Below, in pieces: positions 14,971 through 29,355 of a stretch of 60,484 nucleotides of DNA. The DNA comes from Lachnospiraceae bacterium (GTDB taxonomy: Bacteria > Bacillota > Clostridia > Lachnospirales > Lachnospiraceae). The stretch is taken from positions 1-60,484 of the forward strand of contig JAILNQ010000049.1 in assembly GCA_024691425.1 (NCBI GenBank), in the 5' to 3' direction. The translations under genes were made by a program, and so were the position numbers. The notes under the pieces are model-generated. The model did no database searches and was not told where the DNA came from. It saw only the letters and a list, made by a program, of their open reading frames with translations. The stretch's first letter is position 1. Each line of letters begins with the position of its first letter.

Positions 14971-15531
14971 TTATGCTCCCCGTACCTGCGATACGAATCC
15001 CTCGTACGCTTTTGTAATATATGTTCTGATCTCCCTCTCGGAAAACTCCACTCTGTTTCCGGATATCAGTACCGCCATTCCGTGTACGAACATCCAGAAC
15101 ATCGTGAACAGTTCCTGCTTCTTCTTGTCGGATACCTCATCCCCTGAAATCTTCCTGAGTATCCTCATCCCTTCATCGCTCTTTAAGAACTCGGTTATCG
15201 TCTGTGTTCCGAAATCATCGACCGATGCGATGAGTTCAAAAAGATTCTTCTCGGTCCGTGCAAACTCAATATAAGACAGCGCAAGCCCGAGATATGCCGG
15301 TGTTCTGCTCTTCTTAGAGAGGACCTCGCCGATGAAGTATTCCGTGCTCATATAGAAAAGGTCCGTCCTGAGTTCATCCATGTTCTCGTATGCCCTGAAT
15401 ATCGGCTGTGTTGAGCATCCGAGTCTGTCGGCAAGCTTCCTGGCCGTAACGGATGAGAACCCATATTCTCTTGTCATTTCAAAGGCCTCATCCTCTATCC
15501 TGACCTTCGGAACCTTCTCCTTTGGAGGCAT
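14971..15531 (-). CDS. TetR/AcrR-family transcriptional regulator
   Basis: A 186-residue regulator. The N-terminal helix-turn-helix reads SSVTARKLADRLGCSTQPIF, followed by the FRAYENMDEL helix typical of TetR proteins; the rest is a helical ligand-sensing and dimer domain. An AAGG site precedes ATG 15531. Upstream lie a palindrome ATAACA-T-TGTTAT and a seven-unit 13-bp array carrying the GTTA half-site, a strong sign of autoregulation. The small membrane protein gene follows. The ligand is unknown; a role in controlling the neighbouring exporter operon is possible but not shown. Confidence 0.88.
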   Translation of the reverse strand: MPPKEKVPKVRIEDEAFEMTREYGFSSVTARKLADRLGCSTQPIFRAYENMDELRTDLFYMSTEYFIGEVLSKKSRTPAYLGLALSYIEFARTEKNLFELIASVDDFGTQTITEFLKSDEGMRILRKISGDEVSDKKKQELFTMFWMFVHGMAVLISGNRVEFSEREIRTYITKAYEGFVSQVRGA

Positions 15532-15556
15532 CTCTAACCTTCCCGCATGGCATTGT

Positions 15557-15654
15557 ATAACATTGTTATGTATCTATGTTATATATCATTGTTACATATC
15601 TACGTTACACATCAGTGTTACACATCTTTGTTACATAACAAGGTTATTTTATCT
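15557..15654. repeat. Operator region: palindrome plus seven 13-bp tandem repeats upstream of the TetR gene
   Basis: GTTA motifs recur at exactly 13-bp spacing, with units beginning at 15564, 15577, 15590, 15603, 15616, 15629 and 15642 (typical unit TGTTACATATCTA). The first overlaps the palindrome ATAACA-T-TGTTAT (15557-15569). The array lies 26-123 bases before the TetR start codon and probably binds that regulator cooperatively. Confidence 0.75.
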
Positions 15655-15749
15655 TATGAATAATATTATGTCAACATCTTTTTTGTTCTTTTTTGCGGTT
15701 TTTTTCGTAACGGGCGGAACCGTTTTACCTCCGCTTTAATGTACAGAAA

Positions 15750-15773
15750 AAGGAGCTGCGCTTGCAGCTCCTT
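15750..15773 (-). terminator. Rho-independent terminator of the exporter/channel/kinase/HD-GYP operon
   Basis: Perfect 10-bp stem AAGGAGCTGC / GCAGCTCCTT with a 4-base loop, followed on the minus strand by TTTTTCTG, 23 bases after the HD-GYP stop codon. Confidence 0.88.
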
Positions 15774-15796: not shown

Positions 15797-17038
15797 TCAG
15801 TTTCCTCCGAAACGGTACGCGCTCTTTCCGCTCTCCTTCGCCTCAGCGAGTGCATCTGTTGCAGCTCTGTAAAGCTCTTCGAAAGTGACTCCGTCTTCCA
15901 TGCACATAGCTATTCCGATCACGACTCTGAGCTGACTCCTGTACTGTTCGAATTCATCAAACGTATCGATGGCATCCGCTATCATGGCGGCTTTCTTCCC
16001 GATGACCGATTTTCCCGAATCACCGCTTACATATACCGCGAACCTGTCAGCTGCCATGCGGCATACCGCATCGGCCTCCCTGAAGAATGACTTCAGCCTG
16101 TCGGAAAACTTCTTTATGAGCGTGTCGCATTCATCGCCGCCGATTTCAGAAAGCCCCGTGATATCTATTATCATGAGTCCGCCGGAGCGTTCTTCGGTGA
16201 TCTTCTTGCCCACTATCGCATTCAGATATGATCTTGTGAACAGACCGGTGATCGCATCGATCTCCTCATCGCACTCTTCCGTCGGTGCCCCCGGAGTGAA
16301 CATGCTCCGCAGTCCTCCGTCTCTTGACGCTCTCTCGCTGGCTTCCTTTGTCTGCTCGATTCCCGGATCGACCGAATAACCGCCTTTCAGCATGAACACG
16401 AACACTTCGGCCATTTCCGGATCGAACTGGCTTCCTGCACACCTTGTGAACTCGGAAATGATCTTATCTGTTGTAAGTTTTGAGCGGTAAACCCTGTCGG
16501 AGCTCATCGCATCATACGCATCAGCGATCGATATCACCCTGGCGAATTCAGGGATCTCTTCTTGCGAAAGCCCCTTAGGATATCCCTTTCCGTCCCATCT
16601 CTCATGGTGATGCAGAACGCCTTCGGCAAGATTATCCACTATCGTGATATCCTTGAGCATCTCCGCGCCTTTTACAGGATGACGCTTAATGGCCTCATAT
16701 TCCTCGGGGTCAAGACGCGACGGCTTGTTCACTATCGAATCGTCAACCGTGATCATTCCGATATCATGAAGCAGCGCAACGAAATAAATATTCCTGCACT
16801 TATTCTTGTCCCATCCGAGATTTTCGGCTATATCCCTGGCGCAGACGGCAACCCTCAGCGATCTTCCCGCGCTATAGACATCCGCCGCATCAACGGTATT
16901 AGCTATTGAAATGACCGTCGATAATGCCATGCTGTTCATGTCGAAATACGAAACAGAGGATACGTCATACCCGTCAACGGCAGATCTCACCTTTGCCTCG
17001 TCTTCGCTGTTTCCGTCAATGATCAGTATTTTTTTCAT
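15797..17038 (-). CDS. HD-GYP phosphodiesterase with degenerate GGDEF domain
   Basis: A 413-residue soluble signalling protein. The first 25 residues (MKKILIIDGNSEDEAKVRSA) look like the start of a receiver domain that has been lost. The HD-GYP domain covers about 45-230 with catalytic LLHDIGMI (His91, Asp92) and HHERWDGKGYP (143-153); this family hydrolyses cyclic di-GMP. Residues 260-412 fold like GGDEF, but the signature is AADRFAVY in place of GGDEFAVY, so cyclase activity is unlikely and it may sense nucleotide instead. ATG 17038 overlaps the upstream kinase stop by four bases, which implies joint production with that kinase. It is the last gene before a strong terminator. Confidence 0.9.
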   Translation of the reverse strand: MKKILIIDGNSEDEAKVRSAVDGYDVSSVSYFDMNSMALSTVISIANTVDAADVYSAGRSLRVAVCARDIAENLGWDKNKCRNIYFVALLHDIGMITVDDSIVNKPSRLDPEEYEAIKRHPVKGAEMLKDITIVDNLAEGVLHHHERWDGKGYPKGLSQEEIPEFARVISIADAYDAMSSDRVYRSKLTTDKIISEFTRCAGSQFDPEMAEVFVFMLKGGYSVDPGIEQTKEASERASRDGGLRSMFTPGAPTEECDEEIDAITGLFTRSYLNAIVGKKITEERSGGLMIIDITGLSEIGGDECDTLIKKFSDRLKSFFREADAVCRMAADRFAVYVSGDSGKSVIGKKAAMIADAIDTFDEFEQYRSQLRVVIGIAMCMEDGVTFEELYRAATDALAEAKESGKSAYRFGGN

Positions 17039-19812
17039 AATCCATCCCCAAGATAGTCTCTTATGTAATCAAGCACTTCCTCATACTCTTTAAGGAAGCT
17101 CTCGATGTTATCCTTAATGAATGAAGCATTCCCTTCCTTCGCAGCAAGCTCGTGAGACTTTGCAGTTGCAGAAAGTCCGGATGCGCATGAGCTCGCCATG
17201 ACGCCTTTCACGCCGTGTGCTTCGACGGCATAGCGCTTGACATCCTCCTGCTCGGCCAGTTCACGCAGCAGCGGGATTTTCCGCTCACCCTCCTTGATGA
17301 CCTCTTCAAGAATAAGATGCACTGTTTCCTCTTTATTGTCAAACCGAGCGAAGAGAGCTGCGATATCTACAGGTCCTTCCTTCGCAGAATCTGCATCCTT
17401 CTCCTGCGCCATATCTTCCAAAGCGTTCGGCACAGGCGCAAGAGCGCGCTTTTTAGGCTTGTACATGACCTTATCTTCCGGAAGGTATTTGCGTACCATC
17501 TTAAGAAGCCTTACGGACTCAACAGGCTTGCTGAGGTAATTGTCAAAGCCTTCTTCCTCGTACATCGACCGGCTTCCCATCAGGGCATTTGCTGTCAGTA
17601 TTATCTGCGGAGTATGGGTGTTGAGACCTGCCTCATCGGATCTTATCTGATGCATCGTCTCGATTCCGTCGGGCTCGGGCATCATATGATCCATCAGGAT
17701 GACATCGTATCTGTTGAGCCTGCAGAGTTTTACCGCCTCCTTGCCCGATGAAGCAACATCAAGCTTGACTCCGGTCTCCTTAAGGAACAACCTTACGACC
17801 ATCTGATTCGAAACATTGTCATCGACTTCGAGCACGCGGGCTTCCGGTGCGATATATTGCGGATCGATATCCCGAAGGTCATCATCCTCAATGGCATTTC
17901 CGGAATTGTACTTGCCGAGGGAAGAATTTTCCATCATCTGCTGAGGGATCCGTACGGAGAAAGTGCTTCCCTTGCCGTAAGTGCTCTCCACCTTAATCTC
18001 GCCGTCCATCTTATCCACAAGGCTCTTGACTATGGAAAGCCCGAGTCCCGTTCCCTGGATGTTCTGGTTCTTCTTGATGTCGAGACGGCGGAACGGATCA
18101 AAAATCCCATCGATATCTTCCTTCTTTATTCCTATGCCCGTATCGCTCACATAGAAGCACAGAACGTATCTGCTGTCGCTCGCGAAGCATTCGCCTGTGA
18201 ACGTGACGGTGCCCTCTTCCGTGTATTTTACTGCGTTCGTTATCAGATTCACTACGATCTGAGTGATCCTCTTCTCATCCCCGTAGAGAAGCTTCGGGAA
18301 ATTGCGCGGCTTTCCGACCTTGAACGCAAGTCCTTTTTTCGTCGCCTGAGTACGCAGCATCTCGACCGCGTTATCGAACATCTTCTCGGGATCATAGTTC
18401 TCGCAGACGATCTCCTCCATGTCGTTATCTATCTTCGAAACATCAAGGACATCGTTGATCAGCGATAAGAGCATCGTTCCCGAGTCATTGATGATGTTCG
18501 CATAATTGAGAACGTTCGGATCACTGCTCTCCTTCAGTATCATCTCATTCATGCCGAGGATCGAATTGATAGGAGTCCTGATCTCATGCGACATGCTCGC
18601 AAGGAACTTCGTCTTGGCCGCGCCCTCTTCGTTCGCGCGGTCCCTCTCTATCGTCACATCCCTTATCTCTGTCAGCTGCTGCACGATCGCAAACGCGAAC
18701 AGAATGTACAGGCCGGCAATGATCGCTCCGCCCTCTACACGCTCAACTACTGTATTTATAAGGACGATCTCTACGATGGCGAGCGTTAAGAACGCAAGGA
18801 AACCGTATGATACGAATCTGTAATTTGCGGCATTTCCCTTTATGATATCGTACAGCGTGATGATGAGGGATATCACCGTTCCTATACCGATGACGATATC
18901 AAGGTACAGCAGCGTATGAGTGAAGCTTACTGTATGAGTCAGATGCAGGATCGAAAATACGAGCAGGTTTGCGAACTCTATCAGGCCTACGACCGAATAC
19001 CATTTCCTGTACCGGTAGCCCTGTATCGCATCAAGATAGGCAACGAACGGGAAAGGTATGCAAAGTGTCGTTATATATGAAATGAACCCGTCTATGAACT
19101 GTGTCCTGAAAAGGAACTGGAATACGAACGAATCGACGAACATCCATGATGATGCCGCGAAAATCCCGAGCGCCATGAGTATCAGGCTGACATTCTGTTT
19201 GTATATGACCGTGAGTATGCAACCTGTTATCGCTATTGCCAGGGAGCAGACAAGAAGCGCGAACGACATCGCGAACTGCAACGCTCCGCTCTTTATCTCA
19301 AGGAACCTTACGACTTCGTACTCGTTCCCGACGAATGCACCGAATATCTTGCCTCCGTATCCCTCGTCATCTATCGTGATCTTAAGGTGAGCCCCGGAAT
19401 CCTCAGGTCCTAAAGGGATGAAGAAGTAGGAGTTTTTAGCCACACCGCCTATCAGCGGAGCCTCGGTCTTGCTCCACTGCTTCGCGATCCTGCCACCGAT
19501 CTCTACGGTGATGTCCGTGCGGTTTAAGAATGCTAAAACGGAGCCGTGTTCTATGTTATCCGGCATCTCGGCTTCGTAAATGAATACAGTTCTTCCGTCG
19601 GTATCGATTCTTGCTGGAGAAGTGATTTTCTCCGTCCCTCCGAGCTCGTCCGTATACGTCCACTCGCTGAGCACAGTTACTTCACTGCGCGGAATGAGAA
19701 GCGCCTTCTCGCTCACGATGTAGTACACCATGTATATAACCGACGCGGCAAATGCGAGCGGAACAAGTATGAACAGTGCTTTTCTTGCGTAGTCGTACCA
19801 GGCTCTCATCAC
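17035..19812 (-). CDS. Hybrid histidine kinase with 7TM sensor, receiver and HPt domains
   Basis: A 925-residue multi-step phosphorelay kinase. A first membrane helix (about 11-32) is followed by an extracellular beta-rich domain (35-170) and a bundle of about seven helices (178-380), resembling 7TMR-DISM sensors. HisKA has SMSHEIRTPINSILG with His409; the ATPase has NLITNAVKYTEEG, SDTGIGIKKED and GTGLGLSIV; the receiver (655-775) has the acidic pair in LEVDDN and acceptor Asp708; the HPt domain (815-920) has His866 in VEAHGVKG. It overlaps the channel gene upstream and the HD-GYP gene downstream by four bases each. The sensed signal is unknown. Output could pass to the HD-GYP protein, although that protein has lost its receiver. 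Confidence 0.92.
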   Translation of the reverse strand: MMRAWYDYARKALFILVPLAFAASVIYMVYYIVSEKALLIPRSEVTVLSEWTYTDELGGTEKITSPARIDTDGRTVFIYEAEMPDNIEHGSVLAFLNRTDITVEIGGRIAKQWSKTEAPLIGGVAKNSYFFIPLGPEDSGAHLKITIDDEGYGGKIFGAFVGNEYEVVRFLEIKSGALQFAMSFALLVCSLAIAITGCILTVIYKQNVSLILMALGIFAASSWMFVDSFVFQFLFRTQFIDGFISYITTLCIPFPFVAYLDAIQGYRYRKWYSVVGLIEFANLLVFSILHLTHTVSFTHTLLYLDIVIGIGTVISLIITLYDIIKGNAANYRFVSYGFLAFLTLAIVEIVLINTVVERVEGGAIIAGLYILFAFAIVQQLTEIRDVTIERDRANEEGAAKTKFLASMSHEIRTPINSILGMNEMILKESSDPNVLNYANIINDSGTMLLSLINDVLDVSKIDNDMEEIVCENYDPEKMFDNAVEMLRTQATKKGLAFKVGKPRNFPKLLYGDEKRITQIVVNLITNAVKYTEEGTVTFTGECFASDSRYVLCFYVSDTGIGIKKEDIDGIFDPFRRLDIKKNQNIQGTGLGLSIVKSLVDKMDGEIKVESTYGKGSTFSVRIPQQMMENSSLGKYNSGNAIEDDDLRDIDPQYIAPEARVLEVDDNVSNQMVVRLFLKETGVKLDVASSGKEAVKLCRLNRYDVILMDHMMPEPDGIETMHQIRSDEAGLNTHTPQIILTANALMGSRSMYEEEGFDNYLSKPVESVRLLKMVRKYLPEDKVMYKPKKRALAPVPNALEDMAQEKDADSAKEGPVDIAALFARFDNKEETVHLILEEVIKEGERKIPLLRELAEQEDVKRYAVEAHGVKGVMASSCASGLSATAKSHELAAKEGNASFIKDNIESFLKEYEEVLDYIRDYLGDGL

Positions 19813-20999
19813 ATTCTGCCTCCTGCGCTTTTTCTGAAAACGACGACCAGATCACCTTCGGAAAGCTCGGTATCATCCTTCGGTATCATGTCTTTTCCGT
19901 CTCTTTTTATCCTGACTGCATTGACTCCGAGGGATGCGCAAAGTTCCGATAAAGCAACTCCTGCCCATCCGCCCTTTTCGCTTATAGTGATCTCCTCAAA
20001 GAAGAACTCCGCATCACCGGACCGCTCCGAGCCTATGATGATCCTGTCTCCGGCAAGGATTGCTGTATCACTGTCGGGGATCACTGTTCCCCTCTTCCGG
20101 AGGATCAGAAGAACCTCGGCACCGGGCGGAACATCAAGCTCGCCGGCTTTTTTGCCGCACCATCCGTCGTCTTCGCTCACATTGACTGTTATACAGTCGA
20201 GCGGTTTCTCATTGCTCATGCCTTCAAGATCCCGGATCTTCGTGTACTGCTGGACGAATCCCGCACTTATGATACCTGTCGGTATCGCAACGATCCCCAC
20301 GCCGAGAAACGCAAGGATTATGCCGACGAAACGCCCCGCCGCAGTGATAGGATAAATGTCTCCGTAACCTACGGTCAGCAGTGTCGATACTGCCCACCAT
20401 ATACCCGAGAACGCATTCCTGAACTGGTCAGGCTGAGCATCATGCTCAAGACTGTACATGATAACCGATGCGCCGATGACGAGCATCAGTATTATGAACA
20501 CCGCGGAAAGGATCTGATTCTTCTTTTCGCGCAGAACATCCGTGATGACATTGAAAGCATCATAATATCTGTTGATGCGGAACAGCCGCAGTATCCGAAC
20601 GACACGCAGCATCCTGAACGCGACTGCGCCGAGAGGGACTTTAGCCGCAGGGAATATGAACGAAAGCCAGTAAGGTGCAAATGACAGAAGATCGATGATG
20701 CCGTACAGCGAAAGAACAAACGCCAGAACCGCCGCGGCCATCGTCTTCTTACCCGGATAAGCATAATCAGCCGTCAGAAGACGCAGTATGTACTCAACCG
20801 TGAAGATCACTACCGTAACGAATTCAATGGCATTAAGAACAGGAAGGTATCTTGCCGATGCCTCGAAAGTCTCAAAGAAAATAATGAACAGGTTCAGCAG
20901 GATGGACACCGCAATGACCGCGTCGAACAGCCTGCTCGGCACGTCACCCGTGTACCCTATCCTGATTATCCTGTATATGTTCTTCCTTCTGCTACTCAA
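19809..20999 (-). CDS. Voltage-gated potassium channel (6TM, Kch/KvAP type) with C-terminal TrkA-C-like domains
   Basis: A roughly 396-residue K+ channel of the inner membrane. The S4 helix RMLRVVRILRLFRINR has arginine at every third position, a full voltage sensor. The pore has the selectivity filter LLTVGYGDIYPIT. After S6 come two predicted TrkA-C/RCK-like regulatory domains (about 265-395). The frame is open up to ATG 21059, but that would overlap the ABC gene by 68 bases; TTG 20999, overlapping its stop by eight bases, or TTG 21005, is more likely. It is embedded between an exporter and a hybrid kinase, with overlaps on both sides, so its product is made together with signalling proteins. 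Confidence 0.88.
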   Translation of the reverse strand: MSSRRKNIYRIIRIGYTGDVPSRLFDAVIAVSILLNLFIIFFETFEASARYLPVLNAIEFVTVVIFTVEYILRLLTADYAYPGKKTMAAAVLAFVLSLYGIIDLLSFAPYWLSFIFPAAKVPLGAVAFRMLRVVRILRLFRINRYYDAFNVITDVLREKKNQILSAVFIILMLVIGASVIMYSLEHDAQPDQFRNAFSGIWWAVSTLLTVGYGDIYPITAAGRFVGIILAFLGVGIVAIPTGIISAGFVQQYTKIRDLEGMSNEKPLDCITVNVSEDDGWCGKKAGELDVPPGAEVLLILRKRGTVIPDSDTAILAGDRIIIGSERSGDAEFFFEEITISEKGGWAGVALSELCASLGVNAVRIKRDGKDMIPKDDTELSEGDLVVVFRKSAGGRM

Positions 21000-22929
21000 G
21001 TTCAAATGCCCCTGTGTAAAGCCTGTAATACTGTCCTTTTGCGGCAATGAGTTCATCATGGTTGCCGCGTTCTATGATACGGCCGTGTTCAAGCACTATT
21101 ATAACATCAGAATTCTTTACAGTCGACAGTCTGTGGGCTATGACGAACGTCGTCCTGCCCTTCATCAGAGCGTCCATTCCTCTCTGCACGACCGCCTCTG
21201 TCCTCGTATCGATCGAGGATGTCGCCTCGTCGAGTATCATGACCGGAGGATCGGCTACCGCGGCTCTCGCGATCGAAAGGAGCTGCCTCTGGCCCTGGGA
21301 AAGATTGGCGGCATTCCCGCTTATCATCGTATTATAGCCTTCCGGAAGGTGCGAGATAAAATCATGCGCGCCCGCAAGTTTCGCAGCCTCTATACATTCC
21401 TCATCAGTTGCTGAAAGCTTTCCGTAGCGTATGTTCTCCATGACCGTGCCGGTGAAAAGGTTCGTATCCTGCAGAACGATCCCCACCGCATGACGGAGGT
21501 CGACCTTGCATATCTTGTTGATGTTTATCCCGTCGTATCTTATCTTGCCGTCCGCAATATCATAGAATCTGTTCAGAAGGTTCGTGACCGTTGTCTTTCC
21601 GGCACCGGTCGAGCCTACGAACGCCACTTTCTGTCCGGGCTTCGCATAGAGCGATATGTCGAACAGTATCTGTTTGTCGCCGTCATATGAAAAATCAACC
21701 CCGTCGAGCACTATGTCGCCCATAAGCGGCGTATATGTTATCGTCCCGATATCCTTATGAGGATGCTTCCATGCCCAGAGCTTCGTGTGCTCGTCGGTCT
21801 CGACCAGCTGCCCGTTCTCTTCCTTGACGTTGACTAAATGTACATAGCCGTTGTCAGTTTCAGGCTTCTCATCCATGACACGGTAAATTCTCTCGCACCC
21901 TGCAAGGCCGGCAACTATCGCGTTTATCTGCATCGATATCTGGCCTATCTGCCCGCAGAACATTTTCGTCATTCCGAGGAAAGGAACAACAAGGCTTATC
22001 GAAAAATCCATCCCGCCGATGCCGACGTTCTTTATGCCTGTCGAAACGAAGAATCCTCCTGCTATTCCGACGATGACATAAAGGATGTTTCCCATATTGT
22101 TCAGTATAGGCGCGAGTATATTGGCGTATTTGTTCGCGCGCGATGCAACGGTAAAGAGCTCATCATTGAGCTTTTCGAACTCCTCGCGGCACTGCGGCTC
22201 GTGGCAGAACACCTTGACGACCTTCGCTCCGCTTATCGTTTCCTGTATGTAGCCTTCGGCTTTACCTATAGCCTGCTGCTGCTTTAAGAAGAACCTCGCG
22301 CTTCCGCCCCCGATGACCTTCGTCGTAACGAACATGAGCGCAACGCCCGATATTACAACCATTGTCATGTAAAGGCTGAAGTAGAGCATTATGCATATGA
22401 CCGTCATTATCATAACCGCGGTGTTCAGCATCTGCGGGAAGCTCTGCGATATCATCTGCCTGAGCGCATCGATATCGTTCGTGTACAGGCTCATCGTGTC
22501 GCCGACAGGCCTGCGGTCGAAGAACTTTATCGGAAGCGTCTCCATCCTGTCAAAGAGCTTTCCTCTCATCTTCTTGAGCGTTCCCTGCGTCACAGTGGCC
22601 ATCATCTGGTTGAAAGCGATCGTGCACGAAAGCGAAACGACATACATGCACACAAGAATGGCTACCAGCCGGAATATCTCTCCCTTAGCGCCTGCCCAGT
22701 CACCGCTCTTATACGAGCTCTCTATGACTGCTATAACCTTCTGCTGGAATAAGGAAGGCATTGATGAGATCAGCGCCGACGTCATTATACAGGCGATGAC
22801 GATAGGAAGCATGACCGGATAGAAAGAGAACAGATCCTTCAGCACTCTCTTTACTATTCCTTTTGAAAGCTTCTCTCCCGGAGAAAGGCCGGGACCTCTT
22901 CTTCCCCTGGGACCGTGATTACTTGCCAT
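20992..22929 (-). CDS. ABC exporter half-transporter, catalytically competent subunit
   Basis: A 645-residue permease-ATPase (six membrane helices, then a nucleotide-binding domain from about 390). Walker A VGSTGAGKTTV, Walker B VMILDEATSSID with catalytic Glu, H-loop VIAHRLS, but signature LSQGQ instead of LSGGQ. Paired with the upstream gene it makes a heterodimeric type IV exporter of the TM287/288 kind, probably for drugs, lipids or peptides. Met codons lie further upstream, but ATG 22929 has an ideal GGAGGTGA site and overlaps the previous gene by 11 bases. A roughly 40-residue insertion before the ATPase domain is unusual in length. Confidence 0.92.
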   Translation of the reverse strand: MASNHGPRGRRGPGLSPGEKLSKGIVKRVLKDLFSFYPVMLPIVIACIMTSALISSMPSLFQQKVIAVIESSYKSGDWAGAKGEIFRLVAILVCMYVVSLSCTIAFNQMMATVTQGTLKKMRGKLFDRMETLPIKFFDRRPVGDTMSLYTNDIDALRQMISQSFPQMLNTAVMIMTVICIMLYFSLYMTMVVISGVALMFVTTKVIGGGSARFFLKQQQAIGKAEGYIQETISGAKVVKVFCHEPQCREEFEKLNDELFTVASRANKYANILAPILNNMGNILYVIVGIAGGFFVSTGIKNVGIGGMDFSISLVVPFLGMTKMFCGQIGQISMQINAIVAGLAGCERIYRVMDEKPETDNGYVHLVNVKEENGQLVETDEHTKLWAWKHPHKDIGTITYTPLMGDIVLDGVDFSYDGDKQILFDISLYAKPGQKVAFVGSTGAGKTTVTNLLNRFYDIADGKIRYDGININKICKVDLRHAVGIVLQDTNLFTGTVMENIRYGKLSATDEECIEAAKLAGAHDFISHLPEGYNTMISGNAANLSQGQRQLLSIARAAVADPPVMILDEATSSIDTRTEAVVQRGMDALMKGRTTFVIAHRLSTVKNSDVIIVLEHGRIIERGNHDELIAAKGQYYRLYTGAFELE

Positions 22930-24673
22930 TTTCATCACCTCCCTTATTCTGTGAGGTGTAGATCTCATTATAAATAACACTGTTATTTAACAGTTCTTCA
23001 TGAGTTCCGATCGATTCGATCCGTCCGCCGTCGATGACGATTATCTTATCTGCATCCTCGACTGATGCAGTTCTCTGGGCTATGATGATCTTCGTCGTTT
23101 CGGGAATGTACTTTTTCATTCCCTTCCTGATTATCGCGTCGGTCTTTGTATCGACCGCACTCGTCGAATCATCGAATATGATTATCTTCGGTTTCTTTAA
23201 AAGCGCCCTCGCTATGCAGAGCCTCTGTTTCTGCCCGCCTGATATGTTAGCCCCGCCGTGGTCGATTTTATAGTCGTAACCGCCCTCTTTTGACTCAATG
23301 AACTCCTCTGAGCATGACAGACGGCACGCTTCCTTCATCTCCTCGAGCGTCGCATCGGGATTGCCCCATCTTAAGTTGTCTTTGATCGTTCCTTCGAAAA
23401 GAACATTCTTCTGAAGCACCATCGCGACAGAATTGCGAAGAACAGTGAGGTCATAGTTCTTAACGTCGATGCCGCCGACCCGGACTGTTCCGCCTGTTGC
23501 GTCATACAGTCTCGGAATGAGCTGCACGAGCGATGATTTTCCGCTTCCCGTCGTTCCTATGATTCCTATAGTCTCGCCTGATGCTATCTTGAGGTTTATA
23601 TCTGACAGGACATCATTGTCGGGATTGCCGGCATACGCGAACCGCACGTTTTCGAACTCTATTGAGCCGTCGGCCACCGATTCGATCGCGCTCTCGGGAT
23701 CCGGACTTACTATATCGGATTTCGCCTCGAGCACCTGCACTATTCTCAGAGCGCTCTCCGTCGCGAGCGTGATCATGACAAAGATCATCGACATCATCAT
23801 CAGCGACGAAAGTATCATGAAGCTGTACGTGAGCAGCGCAGTGATCTGTCCGACGTCGATCTCAAGGCCCCTCGAGGATATGACAACGTATGAGCCGAAA
23901 CTCAGCACGAAGACCATTACAACGTACAGGCAGAACTGCATGACCGGCGCGTTCCAGGCAAGTATCTTCTCGGCCTTCGTGAAATCCTTCCTTACTTCCT
24001 CGGATGCATCATCGAACTTGCTCTGCTCGTATTCTTCCCTGACGAATGATTTTACGACACGCATACCGATGATATTCTCCTCGATAGATTCGTTCATCCT
24101 GTCGTATTTCTTGAATATCCTTCTAAAAAGCGGCATCGCCCTTGACGCGACCATGATGAGCGTTCCTGCGAGGATCGGAATGACTACCGCAAATATCCAC
24201 GCCATGCGGCCGCCGAGCCGGAATGCCATGATCAGGGCAAAAATCAGCATGAACGGAGATCTTACAGCGATCCTCGTTATCATCATGAACGCGTTCTGGA
24301 CGTTCGTGACATCCGTTGTCATCCTTGTTACGAGCGAGCTCGTTGAGAACTCGTCGATATTGTTGAATGAAAAATCATTGACCGCATCATACATGTCCGC
24401 GCGCAGATTCTTTCCGAATCCGCAGCTCGCCGTCGCGCACGTCATTCCCGCGAGCATGCCGAAAAGAAGGCTTCCGACTGCCATGATGGCAAGTATGCCT
24501 CCGAATGATGCGATCTCTTTTACCGTCGCCCCGGCTTTTATCCTGTTCACGAGCTCCGCCATATAGAACGGTATCGTGCACTCGAGCACTACTTCGCCTG
24601 AAACAAGAAGCGGCGTCGCTATCGTGCTCGGAAGATACTGCCGGATCGACCGGAATAATTTTGCTATAACCAT
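22919..24673 (-). CDS. ABC exporter half-transporter, degenerate-site subunit
   Basis: A 584-residue permease-ATPase. Walker A is GTTGSGKSSLV and the signature ISGGQKQRL is canonical, but Walker B reads IIIFDDSTSAVD with Asp in place of the catalytic Glu, and the switch residue is Gln (IIAQRTAS) rather than His. Those are the hallmarks of the non-hydrolysing site in heterodimeric exporters; the partner carries the complementary LSQGQ. It starts 39 bases after prfA, so it may be read through from the translation genes. There is no N-terminal C39 peptidase domain. A palindromic operator-like sequence lies inside its 3' end. Confidence 0.92.
   Translation of the reverse strand: MVIAKLFRSIRQYLPSTIATPLLVSGEVVLECTIPFYMAELVNRIKAGATVKEIASFGGILAIMAVGSLLFGMLAGMTCATASCGFGKNLRADMYDAVNDFSFNNIDEFSTSSLVTRMTTDVTNVQNAFMMITRIAVRSPFMLIFALIMAFRLGGRMAWIFAVVIPILAGTLIMVASRAMPLFRRIFKKYDRMNESIEENIIGMRVVKSFVREEYEQSKFDDASEEVRKDFTKAEKILAWNAPVMQFCLYVVMVFVLSFGSYVVISSRGLEIDVGQITALLTYSFMILSSLMMMSMIFVMITLATESALRIVQVLEAKSDIVSPDPESAIESVADGSIEFENVRFAYAGNPDNDVLSDINLKIASGETIGIIGTTGSGKSSLVQLIPRLYDATGGTVRVGGIDVKNYDLTVLRNSVAMVLQKNVLFEGTIKDNLRWGNPDATLEEMKEACRLSCSEEFIESKEGGYDYKIDHGGANISGGQKQRLCIARALLKKPKIIIFDDSTSAVDTKTDAIIRKGMKKYIPETTKIIIAQRTASVEDADKIIVIDGGRIESIGTHEELLNNSVIYNEIYTSQNKGGDENGK
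22972..22988. promoter_or_regulatory. Intragenic palindrome matching the TetR-array half-site
   Basis: AAATAACA-C-TGTTATTT is a perfect 17-bp palindrome inside the 3' end of the first exporter gene, about 43 bases before the second exporter start. It shares the core ATAACA-N-TGTTAT with sites at 15557-15569 and 59484-59496. An overlapping TGTTATTTAACA continues to 22992. Confidence 0.5.
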
Positions 24674-24712: not shown

Positions 24713-25783
24713 TCAGCCGTCCATCTTGACAAGCTTCGCCGCCTGGTCCGCGGCAATGCATGCATCAATTATCTCCTGAATGTCACCGTTCATGACTTTA
24801 TCGAGCTTATAAAGCGTAAGCCCTATCCTGTGATCCGTGACCCTTCCCTGCGGGAAATTGTAGGTCCTGATCTTCTCCGAGCGGTCGCCGGTTCCGATCT
24901 GGCTCTTGCGCAGCTGAGCTTCTGCATCATGGGCCTTCTGCTGCTCGATGTCATAGAGCTTTGCACGCAGCAGCGCGAATGCCTTCGCCTTATTCTGAAG
25001 CTGCGATTTTTCGGTCTGCGAATATATGACTATGCCGGTCGGATAATGCGTGAGCCTTACGGCCGAATCTGTCGTGTTGACGCACTGTCCTCCGTTTCCG
25101 GATGCTCGCATGACATCTATCCTGATATCCTTCTCGTCGATCACAACATCAACGTCTTCCGCCTCGGGCATTACCGCAACAGATATCGTCGAGGTATGTA
25201 TCCTTCCGCCGCTCTCGGTCTCCGGAACACGCTGCACGCGGTGCACTCCGCTCTCATATTTCATGACGGAATACGCGCCCTGTCCTGTTATCATGAAAGT
25301 CACCGACTTCATGCCGCCTATACCGATCTCATCGGTTTCCATCGTCTCGACCTTCCATCCGCGTCCCTCGGCGTAATGCACGTACATGCGGAATATCTCC
25401 GCTGCGAAAAGAGCCGCCTCATCGCCTCCGGCGCCCGCACGGATCTCCACGATGACGTTCTTCTCATCATTCGGATCCTTCGGAAGAAGAAGTATCTTGA
25501 GCTTTCCCTCGAGTTCTTCCACGCGGTCCTTTGCGGCCGAAAGCTCTTCCTTCAGCATCTCGCGCATCTCGTCATCGGACTCCGCATCGAGCATCTCCAG
25601 GCTGTCCTCGATGTCCTTTTTGCTCTTTTTGTATTCGCTGTATGCGGTAACGATCGGAGCAAGTTCGCTCTGCTCCTTCATGAGCCGCTTGAATCTTTCC
25701 TGATCGTCCGCGGTGCCCGGCTCTCCGAGCTCGCTCATGATCTCCTCGTACCTTATGAGAAGATCCTCAAGTTTATCAAACAT
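24713..25783 (-). CDS. prfA: Peptide chain release factor 1
   Basis: This 356-residue factor ends translation at UAA and UAG. The catalytic GGQ lies in [18 protein letters not shown], and the stop-codon reading PxT is PET in [16 protein letters not shown], which marks RF1 rather than RF2. [18 protein letters not shown] is also typical. The start has AAAGGA upstream. prmC, whose product methylates the GGQ glutamine, is the preceding gene, but a 144-base gap with a long hairpin separates them. Confidence 0.97.
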
Positions 25784-25927: not shown

Positions 25928-26779
25928 TCATATGCGAACGACTATAACTCTGTCGTTTCCGCCGTAATCCTTCACTGTCTCGATGCGGGAAAATCCCGCG
26001 TCCTCAAATATTTTCGCAACATCTTCCGCCTGGTCGTATCCTATCTCGACAGCCGCAAAGCCTCCTGAATTAAGATGCTCCCTTGCAGACTCTGCGATCC
26101 TTCTGTAGAAGGCAAGTCCGTCTGCTCCGCCGTCGAGCGCTATCCTCGGATCGTGGTCACGGACTTCCGGCATGAGAGTTTCTATGACATCAGTCCGTAT
26201 GTACGGCGGATTGGAAATGATCACGTCGAACTTCCTTCCGGGGACCGCAGAAAACATATCTCCTGCTATGAACTCGGCAGAACCTCCGTTAAGGCCTCCC
26301 GAAGCATCAAGGACCGAATGATTTTCGCGGGCTATGATAAGAGCGTCCTCCGAGATGTCGACGCCGACTCCGCGGCATCCGTTCTTGTAATGCATCAGCG
26401 ACAGAAGAAGGCATCCGCTTCCGGTGCACAGATCGAGTATTTCCGAGCCGTCATCGGTATAGCGCATCGCTTCTTCGACGAGGCATTCGCTGTCCTGCCG
26501 CGGGATGAGCACCTTATCGCTCACGCGAAAATCGATCCCCATGAAGCAGCACGTCCCGGTCAGATGTGCAAGAGGCACATGCTCTGCTCTTTTTGCAAGA
26601 AGGCGCATGTAATTTTTCTCTTCTGCAGTTCCAAGCTTCTCTTCAGGATGGACCAGCAGATAGTCGCGCTCTTTCCCCGTTATAAACTCCAAAAGCAGCC
26701 TTGCATCCAAGGCTGCTTCAGGTATTCCGGCATCAGACAGAATCTGAGTGCCGTTTTTATGTGCCACGCTATAATTCAT
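25928..26779 (-). CDS. prmC: Release factor glutamine methyltransferase
   Basis: This 283-residue AdoMet enzyme methylates the GGQ glutamine of release factors 1 and 2. The N-terminal substrate-binding bundle is followed by the Rossmann domain with ILDLCTGSGCLLLSL and the catalytic SNPPYIRTD. The frame is open to 26833, but ATG 26779 (MNYSVAHKNG), overlapping the stop of the DUF1385 gene by 11 bases, fits the family's N-terminus better. It is encoded just before its substrate gene prfA, as in most Firmicutes. Confidence 0.94.
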   Translation of the reverse strand: MNYSVAHKNGTQILSDAGIPEAALDARLLLEFITGKERDYLLVHPEEKLGTAEEKNYMRLLAKRAEHVPLAHLTGTCCFMGIDFRVSDKVLIPRQDSECLVEEAMRYTDDGSEILDLCTGSGCLLLSLMHYKNGCRGVGVDISEDALIIARENHSVLDASGGLNGGSAEFIAGDMFSAVPGRKFDVIISNPPYIRTDVIETLMPEVRDHDPRIALDGGADGLAFYRRIAESAREHLNSGGFAAVEIGYDQAEDVAKIFEDAGFSRIETVKDYGGNDRVIVVRI

Positions 26780-27725
26780 CAGAATTTTTTCCGAGGTACT
26801 CCTTCCAGTCGAATACCGCCTCAACGGCCGCAATGCCGACCTCTATCATAGTGTCGTCGGGCTCACGCGTTGTAAGGCGCTGAAGCCACATTCCGGGGGC
26901 TGACAGTATACGTATCACGATGTTGTTGTATCTTCCCGCAAGCCTTATGATCTCGTACGAGATCGATGCGATCACGGGGATCAGAAGAAGCCTTATCGCG
27001 ATCCTTGCGACCGGCTCTTCGACTCTTATGAAAATGAACAGTATGACGCTTATGAAAACAACGAAGAACAGAAAGCTCGTTCCGCAGCGCTTATGCTCGC
27101 GGGATGCGTTCCTTACGTTTTCGACAGTGAGCTCGTGTCCGGTCTCGATGCAGTTGATGCATTTATGCTCCGCACCGTGATACATGAACACGCGGCGTAT
27201 ATCCTTCATGCACGATATCAGAACGATATATCCGATGAAGATCAGCACGCGGAGTGCGCCTTCAAGCGCGGCGAGCGCGGTGTCGCTGACGATGACGTTC
27301 TTTAAAAGCTGTGAAAGATAATAAGGAAGCAGCACGAAAAGCCCGATCGCGAAAGCCATCGAAATGATGACCGTGACCGTCGAAAGGACTTTTTCGGTAT
27401 GGTCCTTGAAGATCCTGTCGATTATCTTGTCCTTCTTGTGGGTATCGGTCTCCTCCTCGTAGAACGACGCGGAGTAATTGAGCGTCCTTATGCCGAGGAT
27501 CAGAGAATCAATGAAATTAAAGACGCCGCGGATGAACGGAATGCGTGTCAGCGCCTTTGACGGCGCGAACGATTCATATTCCTCGACGGTGACATCGATA
27601 TCTCCTTCAGGAGTGCGGACCGCGACGGAATACTTGTCCTTGTTCTTCATCATAATGCCTTCAAGAACGGCCTGTCCGCCTATGCCCGAGTAGCGCGGTT
27701 TTTTTCTTTTTCCCTTATCTGCCAT
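26769..27725 (-). CDS. DUF1385 membrane protein (YqhQ-like)
   Basis: A 318-residue integral membrane protein of the DUF1385 family. IGGQAVLEGIMMKNKDKYSV at the N-terminus is the family signature; about five hydrophobic helices follow. The conserved YHGAEHKCINCIETGHELT, with several His and Cys, suggests metal binding. Function in bacteria is not established. Its place between rpmE and prmC is the usual Clostridia arrangement. The upstream ribosome site is weak (GGAT), and the rpmE terminator sits 24 bases before ATG 27725. Confidence 0.9.
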   Translation of the reverse strand: MADKGKRKKPRYSGIGGQAVLEGIMMKNKDKYSVAVRTPEGDIDVTVEEYESFAPSKALTRIPFIRGVFNFIDSLILGIRTLNYSASFYEEETDTHKKDKIIDRIFKDHTEKVLSTVTVIISMAFAIGLFVLLPYYLSQLLKNVIVSDTALAALEGALRVLIFIGYIVLISCMKDIRRVFMYHGAEHKCINCIETGHELTVENVRNASREHKRCGTSFLFFVVFISVILFIFIRVEEPVARIAIRLLLIPVIASISYEIIRLAGRYNNIVIRILSAPGMWLQRLTTREPDDTMIEVGIAAVEAVFDWKEYLGKNSDEL

Positions 27726-28071: not shown

Positions 28072-29325
28072 TTATGATTCCTCGAGGAAAACTTCCCCAT
28101 TGTTTATCATATCGATCATAATCTGGGCTATCTTTGGATCGAACTGAGTGCCCTTGTTCTTCTCAAGTTCGGACAGTATCACGTCCTTCGTCAGATGGTT
28201 CCTGTAGCATCTGTCGGAGTTCATGGCATCGAGCGCATCCGCCACGCAGATGATACGTGCAACGAGCGGGATATTTTCGCCTGCAAGGCCTTCCATGTAT
28301 CCTGTCCCGTCATATCTCTCATGATGGTAGACAGCGCCGTCCCTGATCCCGTCTATGGCGGTGAAATCCTTGAGGATGTTGCCGCCGTTCGTCGTGTGGC
28401 TCTCCATCACATCGAACTCTTCCTTGGTAAGAAGTCCCGGCTTGTTGAGTATCGCCCCGGGGATCGAGAGCTTTCCGCAGTCGTGCATGAGGCCGATGTA
28501 GCCGATGTCACGTATCTGCTCTTCGTTCATGCCGAGCTTCTCCGCGATCTTCTGCGAATAGTAGGATACCCTCGCGCTGTGTCCCTTCGTGTATCTGTCC
28601 TTCGTATCTATGAAATTCGCGAATGTGCTCATAGTCTGGGATATAACGTTGTTGAGCCTCTCCGAGTTCCTTCTGTAGTTCTCCTCCCTGATCCTGTAGA
28701 GGACGTATGCCACTGCGGATGTGAACCATGCGACAAGAAGAACCATGATGACCCAGAAGAGAGCATATTTTCTTACCGGCTTGTATCTGCATCCCGTGAA
28801 GCTGAGCTCATTGAAATCCATGAGTTCCTTCGAGATCATGACCGCTCCGAACGTTGCGGAATCTCCCGCCTCGATCGTCTCGATACGGTTGTCGGGAGTG
28901 ATCTTTATCGTATCTTCCTGCTTGTCATATTCCCACTCGCCGTTCCAGTAACTGTCTATAGTGATGTTCTTTTCGGGAACGAAAATCAAGACGCTCCAGT
29001 TCACTATGTCATATGACGAATTGTTGGTTATCGTGTTGTCGTACTGTGCGCCGTATGTCTGAAGAGGAGTGTCGGGATCGTTCGTCCAGTGCTTCGAAAT
29101 ATCCACTGTATAAGCATAGTCATCCTTTGCTATGATGGACCCGTCAGAAGCGGTGATCGATGCTCCTGCGTCTTCATCGCTGTTGATACGTATCCTATAT
29201 TGGAAAGGTGTGTTGAGATCGTGCCTCACCTTGGCTTCAAGCGCTCCTATGCCTGCGAGAAGAACAGCCAGAATGATGATGAGGATCGCAACACCGTACC
29301 TGCTGCCTTTTTTCTTTTTATTCAT
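28072..29325 (-). CDS. Membrane-anchored HD-GYP phosphodiesterase
   Basis: A 417-residue protein with an N-terminal membrane helix (about residues 11-30), an extracellular beta-sandwich-like domain (35-185) resembling a carbohydrate-binding fold, a second helix (about 190-212) and a cytoplasmic HD-GYP domain. The catalytic His-Asp is in [10 protein letters not shown]. The GYP triad is changed: [13 protein letters not shown] has Met for Pro. The family hydrolyses cyclic di-GMP; the altered triad leaves activity uncertain. ATG 29325 with GGAGG six bases upstream is preferred to the Met at 29340. The topology suggests that an external ligand controls nucleotide hydrolysis. Confidence 0.9.
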
Positions 29326-29355
29326 GTATTTCCTCCGCATTACTGTGTAACAATA

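Follow-up and report, generated by a model that had tools for sequence, protein, structure and literature searches.

In the 60,484-nt contig JAILNQ010000049.1 of a Lachnospiraceae bacterium (assembly GCA_024691425.1; this whole stretch is referred to below as the window), a string of five minus-strand genes at 15797-24673 encodes the two halves of an ABC exporter (ABC1 and ABC2), a predicted voltage-gated (Kv-type) K+ channel, a hybrid histidine kinase, and a protein with HD-GYP and GGDEF domains. We consider this string to be, probably, a clade-specific operon tail behind prfA, present in one group of rumen bacteria and composed of parts with separate histories. The original prediction was that the string may couple membrane potential or K+ to the turnover of cyclic di-GMP (c-di-GMP) and to export. 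Biofilms are shaped both by electrical signaling through K+ channels and by control through c-di-GMP, and a cluster joining them would make the link testable; in Geobacter, disrupting K+ channel-mediated signaling is described as raising the expression of c-di-GMP synthesis genes (PMC11283642). The composition of exporter, channel, kinase, and HD-GYP protein is real, and a literature search that covered few subscription journals gave no described system of this kind, as had been claimed. The proposed coupling fared worse, as discussed below.

Overlapping genes behind prfA

The five genes overlap end to end as predicted. Read from the DNA, the overlaps comprise 11 bases (ATGGCAAGTAA) between ABC1 and ABC2, 8 bases (TTGAGTAG) between ABC2 and the channel, and 4 bases each between the channel and the kinase (GTGA) and between the kinase and the HD-GYP/GGDEF gene (ATGA), and the string finishes at a terminator with a 10-pair stem. 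The third overlap would shrink to 1 base if the kinase began at the ATG that follows the GTG, and the second requires that the channel start at a TTG at 20999. The mechanically called channel open reading frame (ORF) opens at ATG 21059; the later start is supported by G029, G007, and G018, in which in-frame stops lie upstream of the point matching 20999. Such overlaps make a single transcript likely, and the parts of the string are probably co-transcribed. The terminator scan of the window gave 14 sites versus 10.3 in shuffles, so that the stem at 15773-15750 has to be judged by its own strength and position. A consensus scan of the gap between prfA and ABC1 gave no promoter-like site; the transcript may therefore start further upstream, and "five-gene operon" may be too short a description. 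The gene prfA, with prmC and a DUF1385 gene, is a possible head of the same transcript as the exporter-channel-kinase string.

Distribution in the genus and the family

We searched 37 genomes of the genus. The window genome and its relatives (G numbers) are draft assemblies, and among the named records metagenome assemblies prevail. Outside the Pfam searches, genes were called with a plain ORF finder and by BLAST comparison with the window proteins; the ORF finder missed genes that overlap longer ORFs by >90 nt, namely ABC1 of G007 and G020 and the channel of G029, G022, and some named loci, and clade gene content was corrected by tblastn. The channel is present in 36 of the 37 genomes, the one miss being a 59%-complete genome. 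The kinase sensor is found at 51% identity or more in 13 genomes (the window's and 12 others, referred to here as the clade), always directly behind the channel. Among the other 24 genomes, 20 match the sensor at no more than 31% identity and 4 do not match it at all; 19 of those 20 have the channel, and the sensor match sits on other contigs than the channel. Wherever contigs reach, the clade keeps the order prfA-ABC1-ABC2-channel-kinase, with a TetR-like gene also in place. Seven of the 13 also carry the HD-GYP gene (at least 59% identity). Of the six in which it was not found, five have the TetR-like gene after the kinase with no HD-GYP remnant between them, and in the sixth (G020) the contig ends inside the kinase. 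The presence of the HD-GYP gene needs three changes on the kinase tree. The expected conservation of the channel next to the kinase is complete in the clade (13/13) and is seen in only 13 of the 36 channel genomes.

In a sample of 150 genomes from the family, taken to be Lachnospiraceae, with one genome per genus, the channel was found in 36 genera including the window's, which, together with its occurrence in the genus, reveals a family of Kv-type channels. The surroundings of the 35 non-window channels were examined (those of G201 and G136 lie at contig ends), and none has an adjacent hybrid kinase; kinase-like genes lie 1.5 and 2.1 kb away in G208 and G178. A second set held the 80 best named channel loci, six of them in the clade and 50 with 2.5 kb on both sides. 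Strong kinase or sensor matches within 5 kb of the channel were confined to the six clade loci. The 74 non-clade loci gave none, although a weak kinase match lies at 4.8 kb in L073 and weaker two-component matches (22-37%) lie near the channel in L081, L090, and L145; because these searches relied on resemblance to the domains found in the window, dissimilar kinases may have escaped them. The identical values of L116 and L179 indicate that the two locus sets share at least one genome. On these counts, channel-kinase linkage as a family-wide trait was rejected, and the proposed channel-kinase link retains a measure of support within the genus, from the clade and from the 11 nearby kinases described below.

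In the clade, prfA and the TetR-like gene are as syntenic as the string itself, so the adjacency of channel and kinase there is not specially informative. Equally syntenic flanks, and the diverse neighbors of the channel elsewhere, would suit a polycistronic region that was assembled once in the clade ancestor and in which exporter, channel, and kinase are functionally unlinked. We regard this as rather unlikely, since ABC1, ABC2, and the channel recur in this order outside the clade, in L079 and L113 and, interrupted by two genes, in G014, and since 11 more genomes of the genus have another hybrid kinase close to the channel.

These recurrences also weigh against our own reading of a clade-specific tail made of parts with separate histories. 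Of the 23 other genus genomes with a channel, 11 (G008, G035, G017, G013, G032, G023, G003, G011, G026, G021, and G036) encode a different hybrid kinase downstream of the channel, in the same orientation and at a distance of 320-882 nt. These proteins of about 600 aa (506 aa in G035, cut by the contig end) match the window kinase in the kinase (48-50%) and receiver (42-49%) domains, with no match to its sensor or HPt; the one scanned, from G017, contains HisKA, HATPase, and receiver domains. In addition, a receiver-like gene (20-22%) precedes the channel by 29-40 nt in G011 and G026, and the link between the channel and two-component genes may thus reach beyond clade history. The exporter-channel order of L079 and L113 occurs without the kinase, and exporter pairs of other subfamilies (33-37% identity) adjoin the channel in two of the 35 other genera (G086 and G134). 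The 11 kinases share the same next gene and look like one lineage, which would amount to about one further event, though one that agrees with a real channel-kinase link in this genus. Taken together, 24 of the 36 genus genomes have a hybrid kinase next to the channel (13 genomes) or one small gene away from it (11 genomes). In G024, another hybrid kinase is found 786 nt from the channel, on the opposite strand, and the remaining 11 of the 23 showed no kinase within 3 kb by the similarity test, some of them on short contigs. The two exporter pairs beside the channel compare with 0.13-0.26 expected (P 0.008-0.029), where chance expectations come from Pfam counts per genome and gene numbers estimated at 950 per Mb; with two loci, tested after being seen, this enrichment is a lead only.

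A short opposite-strand ORF (92-121 aa) lies between the channel and the kinase of about 600 aa in the 11 genomes (L049-L061), and two such ORFs are present in G008 and G032. The one scanned (G017) had no Pfam match.

The HD-GYP/GGDEF protein and the proposed c-di-GMP link

The last gene of the string was predicted to carry a c-di-GMP phosphodiesterase domain. The domain is there (HD_5, E 2.4e-36; GGDEF, E 1.2e-16), and key catalytic residues are missing. We compared the seven clade proteins with PmGH (4mcw), whose numbering is used here, and with 14 HD-GYP controls from the same genus, which are not independent because eight of them form one orthologous group (that of the second HD-GYP gene of the window). 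The lysine of the HDxGK motif, K225, is replaced by Met in all seven clade proteins and is Lys in 14/14 controls. The metal ligand H189 is lost in six of the seven (R, R, S, K, K, and R; His only in G007) and kept in the 13/13 controls that reach this position. The window protein has Arg at H189 and keeps H221, D222, H250, H276, H277, and D305, while the E185 position is variable. A GGDEF or GGEEF signature is absent from all seven, the window protein reading AADRF instead. Hence the window protein shares the HD, HHE, and GYP motifs (including HHExxDGxGYP) with phosphodiesterases of the PmGH and RpfG type, and differs from them in the Met at K225, the Arg at H189, the degenerate GGDEF domain, and the lack of a receiver match. 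The Pfam scan found no receiver domain in this gene; in our reading, its N-terminus resembles the first ~30 residues of one.

In the account of PmGH, the exchanges H189A and K225A each essentially abolish activity, and RpfG carries Phe at the H189 position (PMC4159591), although RpfG is treated as a c-di-GMP hydrolase and HD-GYP activity is described as hard to predict where single residues differ (PMC4212101). Loss of H189 alone would therefore be no proof of inactivity, which is a further point against our reading, and the loss of K225 is the stronger argument. We expect the window protein to act on c-di-GMP poorly or to have no catalytic activity, and in that part of the clade which has it, it would be at most a binding or scaffold protein.

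This bears on the proposal that K+ flux through the channel, or membrane potential, controls the kinase, that the kinase sets c-di-GMP hydrolysis by the HD-GYP protein, and that the ABC pair exports. The overlap of the genes, the intact relay residues of the kinase, and the hybrid kinases found close to the channel in another 11 genomes of the genus are in its favor, as is the occurrence of related kinases next to HD-GYP genes elsewhere in the genus. In G008, G032, and G036, a REC-HD-GYP gene comes after a hybrid kinase related to that of the window (sensor 29-32%, kinase 49-51%); the two genes overlap by 4 bases in G008 and G032 and are 36 nt apart in G036. These pairs share the kinase domain order and the next HD-GYP gene with the window, but their HD-GYP proteins have a receiver match and a canonical HDIGK, and no channel or ABC gene occurs in the fetched 10-12 kb. 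Among 20 stretches around sensor relatives, a separate HD-GYP gene was found in these three, and L167 has a similar sensor fused to an HD-GYP domain. Kinase-HD-GYP pairing is thus not special to the window cluster. We consider the proposed module very unlikely: the HD-GYP gene was not found in 6 of the 13 clade genomes (one of them, G020, with a contig that ends in the kinase), its product has an eroded active site, no receiver match, and a GGDEF motif lost in 7/7, and a hybrid kinase adjoins the channel in 0/35 other genera, with no general module seen. The coupling of K+ or potential to c-di-GMP turnover through the HD-GYP protein of the string is unlikely.

A further point for the proposal comes from Bacillus subtilis, where a K+ leak through MstX-YugO is reported to activate the histidine kinase KinC and control biofilm formation, YugO being described as a putative TrkA-domain channel (PMC3667857). 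The window channel resembles YugO as a K+ channel with a possible link to a histidine kinase; they differ in that YugO belongs to a two-gene operon with mstX, KinC lies outside this operon, and neither an ABC exporter nor an HD-GYP gene is found there. YugO is not known to have a voltage sensor. The analogy with YugO drawn in the original prediction is looser than it was put. By this analogy, it is possible that K+ flux acts on the window kinase as YugO does on KinC.

Elsewhere in the family, the channel stands next to HD-GYP genes of another type. The order TrkH-channel-HD-GYP occurs in L097, L102, L107, and G163, with gaps of 61-116 nt, and TrkA precedes TrkH in three of them (the contig of L107 starts inside TrkH). 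The HD-GYP protein at these loci is membrane-anchored and keeps GHS, HDCGK, and HHERYDGKGYP. K+ uptake genes lie within 3.5 kb of the channel in 8/80 named loci and 3/35 genera, and in L079 the ABC1-ABC2-channel string is extended by two KtrB/KtrA-like genes, one of the TrkH family and one with TrkA_N.

Such loci would suit a K+/c-di-GMP pair without a phosphorelay, in which an HD-GYP protein binds c-di-GMP without cleaving it and regulates the channel or the exporter, the channel-HD-GYP link having arisen repeatedly. The canonical motifs of this second lineage, the HHExxDGxGYP and HD motifs kept in the window protein, and a GGDEF-like gene 10 nt from the channel in G190, in convergent orientation, all fit. 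We nevertheless find this pair distinctly unlikely for two reasons. HD-GYP adjacency was seen in one of the 35 other genera (G163) versus 0.10-0.20 expected by chance (P 0.10-0.18, not significant), and the HD-GYP proteins of the TrkH loci differ in type from the last gene of the string, resembling instead the second HD-GYP gene of the window.

Across the family, the channel is linked to ABC pairs (L079 and L113; other pairs in G086 and G134), Trk/Ktr uptake, and HD-GYP genes in at least two lineages. A more general possibility, which we judge unlikely, is that the Kv channel family feeds electrical signals into two-component, second-messenger, or envelope signaling, with K+ or potential controlling c-di-GMP at the TrkA-TrkH-channel-HD-GYP loci and the HD-GYP protein of the window clade turned into a non-catalytic reader. 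As the HD-GYP protein at the TrkA-TrkH loci keeps its catalytic motifs, K+ or potential could control c-di-GMP there; the HD-GYP gene of the string is both optional and eroded, which makes the window cluster a poor candidate for such a link. Judged by these motifs, the TrkA-TrkH-channel-HD-GYP lineage is the better place to test the K+/c-di-GMP idea.

The second HD-GYP gene of the window, next to rpmE, has canonical catalytic residues and a CBM_2-like extracytoplasmic region (E 3e-4, below the cut-off). Its relatives stand behind the channel in L097, L102, and L107 (46-50%), and a similar protein is found in G163.

Channel, kinase and exporter

The six regularly spaced S4 arginines and the TVGYGD filter predicted for the channel were confirmed by alignment and by reading the DNA. 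The protein has six transmembrane segments and S4 arginines at every third residue (R129, R132, R135, R138, R141, and R144), the first four of which are invariant across a 19-sequence channel alignment; the TVGYGD selectivity filter is also present in 76 of 81 channel stretches. Pfam gave Ion_trans (E 7e-31) and two TrkA_C matches at the C-terminus. An AlphaFold2 model (predicted local distance difference test, pLDDT, 79; predicted template modeling score 0.48) matched Kv4.2, KCNQ2, and Kv2.1 over the membrane part in Foldseek, and the best matches to Kv proteins reached E 3.5e-23 in phmmer and E 1.3e-10 in Foldseek. From sequence and model, the window channel is predicted to be a Kv-type K+ channel, which shares the S1-S6 fold, S4 arginines, and TVGYGD with Kv4.2, KCNQ2, and Kv2.1 and differs from eukaryotic Kv channels in that two C-terminal TrkA_C domains replace the eukaryotic cytoplasmic domains. 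Depolarization would move the S4 arginines and open the TVGYGD pore, and the release of K+ would repolarize the cell. The tandem TrkA_C domains may be a ligand-gating or assembly element. Channel relatives elsewhere in the genus have two, one, or no TrkA_C domains and other neighbors, and G001, within the clade, has a channel without C-terminal domains.

Gating by c-di-AMP through TrkA_C was also considered. The signature (I/L)(I/L)X2DX1RX5N(I/L)(I/L), taken from the description of c-di-AMP-regulated RCK_C proteins in PMC10117811, occurred in 0/81 channel stretches, a few of them truncated, and the candidate was rejected.

The HisKA and receiver domains predicted for the kinase are found, as are a putative sensor region and a weakly matching HPt. 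HisKA, HATPase, and receiver domains scored highly in Pfam; HPt was weak (E 1.9e-4, below the Pfam cut-off) and carries an AHxxKG motif. By motif, the phosphorelay residues are intact (HisKA H409, receiver D708, and HPt H866), and the kinase would pass phosphate along H409-D708-H866, most likely to a response regulator encoded elsewhere. Its N-terminus is laid out as a transmembrane helix, an extracytoplasmic beta-rich part, and about seven more transmembrane helices. A low-confidence model of the sensor (pLDDT 68.7, seven sequences) shows beta strands at 46-163 and about seven helices. The sensor had no Pfam match and, from this model, no Foldseek match at E<=0.001; its layout makes it at most a candidate for the 7TMR-DISM sensors, which combine an extracytoplasmic beta domain with a 7TM region.

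The two exporter genes each contain ABC_membrane and ABC_tran domains (E 6.4e-43 and 1.9e-28 in ABC1), and the catalytic Glu is missing in one, the arrangement of a heterodimeric type IV ABC exporter. ABC1 has IIIFDDST, with Asp after Walker B, and ISGGQ, and its ATP site is expected to be non-catalytic; ABC2 has the canonical VMILDEAT and a degenerate LSQGQ signature. Against solved structures, ABC1 matched 4q4j chain A (E 1e-123), presumably TM287, and TM_0288 (1.8e-84); the 4q4j and 3qf4 chains are among its best solved bacterial relatives, the very top matches being eukaryotic ABCB1. The window pair is like TM287/TM288 in having two half transporters and one degenerate ATP site, and differs in the channel and kinase genes downstream. 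Strong ABC2 matches (E<=1e-120) occur in 32 of the 37 genus genomes, and matches at E<=1e-150 in 115 of the 150 family genomes. The pair is a near-core exporter that, by its motifs, has one degenerate ATP site. A common role of the parts of the string in envelope or ion stress is possible.

Near the channel of L073, on the opposite strand, a 196-aa ABC2-like fragment (L073:6167-6757) is 76% identical to part of the window ABC2. L073 also has a MarR-like gene by reading, and may hold a remnant of an ABC-channel neighborhood.

Neighboring genes

The features of the string and its surroundings are listed in Table 1.

Table 1. Features of the exporter-channel-kinase string and neighboring genes in the window.
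Feature	Coordinates	Strand	Basis or remark
ABC1, half of a heterodimeric type IV ABC exporter	22919-24673	minus	Pfam, motifs, solved relatives
ABC2, other exporter half	20992-22929	minus	Pfam, motifs
Predicted Kv-type K+ channel, 396 aa, S1-S6 and two TrkA_C	19809-20999	minus	Pfam, alignment, AlphaFold2 model, Foldseek
Hybrid histidine kinase, 925 aa	17035-19812	minus	Pfam, motifs, structure model
HD-GYP and GGDEF protein, eroded active sites	15797-17038	minus	Pfam, residue comparison, PmGH alignment
Rho-independent terminator	15750-15773	minus	10-pair stem and T tract
prfA (RF-1)	24713-25783	minus	Pfam PCRF/RF-1; 39 nt upstream of ABC1
prmC	25928-26833		Pfam PrmC_N; precedes prfA
DUF1385 gene	26769-27725		Pfam DUF1385; precedes prfA
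Second HD-GYP gene	28072-29340	minus	next to rpmE
Promoter-like site and TAAC(N9) array	15555-15674	minus	upstream of the TetR-like gene
TetR-like gene	14971-15531	minus	Pfam TetR_N, just below cut-off
Small membrane protein, 107 aa	14610-14933	minus	no Pfam or NCBIfam match
Three genes, 574, 593, and 319 aa	10009-14507	plus	one matches DUF6020

Upstream of the TetR-like gene, a promoter-like site (TTGACA-17-TAAAAT) runs into seven tandem 13-bp TAAC(N9) units. The pattern is found only there in the window's genome (83.8% complete), bar one stray match with one mismatch. All 10 clade relatives that were checked have arrays of 5-8 units at the TetR gene, and G034, G009, and G030 have arrays of 4-5 units; the contig of G028 does not reach this gene. 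Such an array probably serves the TetR-like protein as an operator with several binding sites. In L032 (4059-5297, by Pfam) and L042 (14297-15634, by reading), a gene of the UDP-glucose/GDP-mannose dehydrogenase family is inserted between the HD-GYP and TetR genes, followed in L042 by a further ORF of 326 aa.

The 107-aa membrane protein is conserved in 23 of the 37 genus genomes. Its gene follows TetR in the clade and lies directly upstream of the channel in G028, G030, G034, and, by coordinates, G009, so that it may be a channel partner. In much of the clade, the three-gene set on the plus strand is likewise retained on the far side of TetR.

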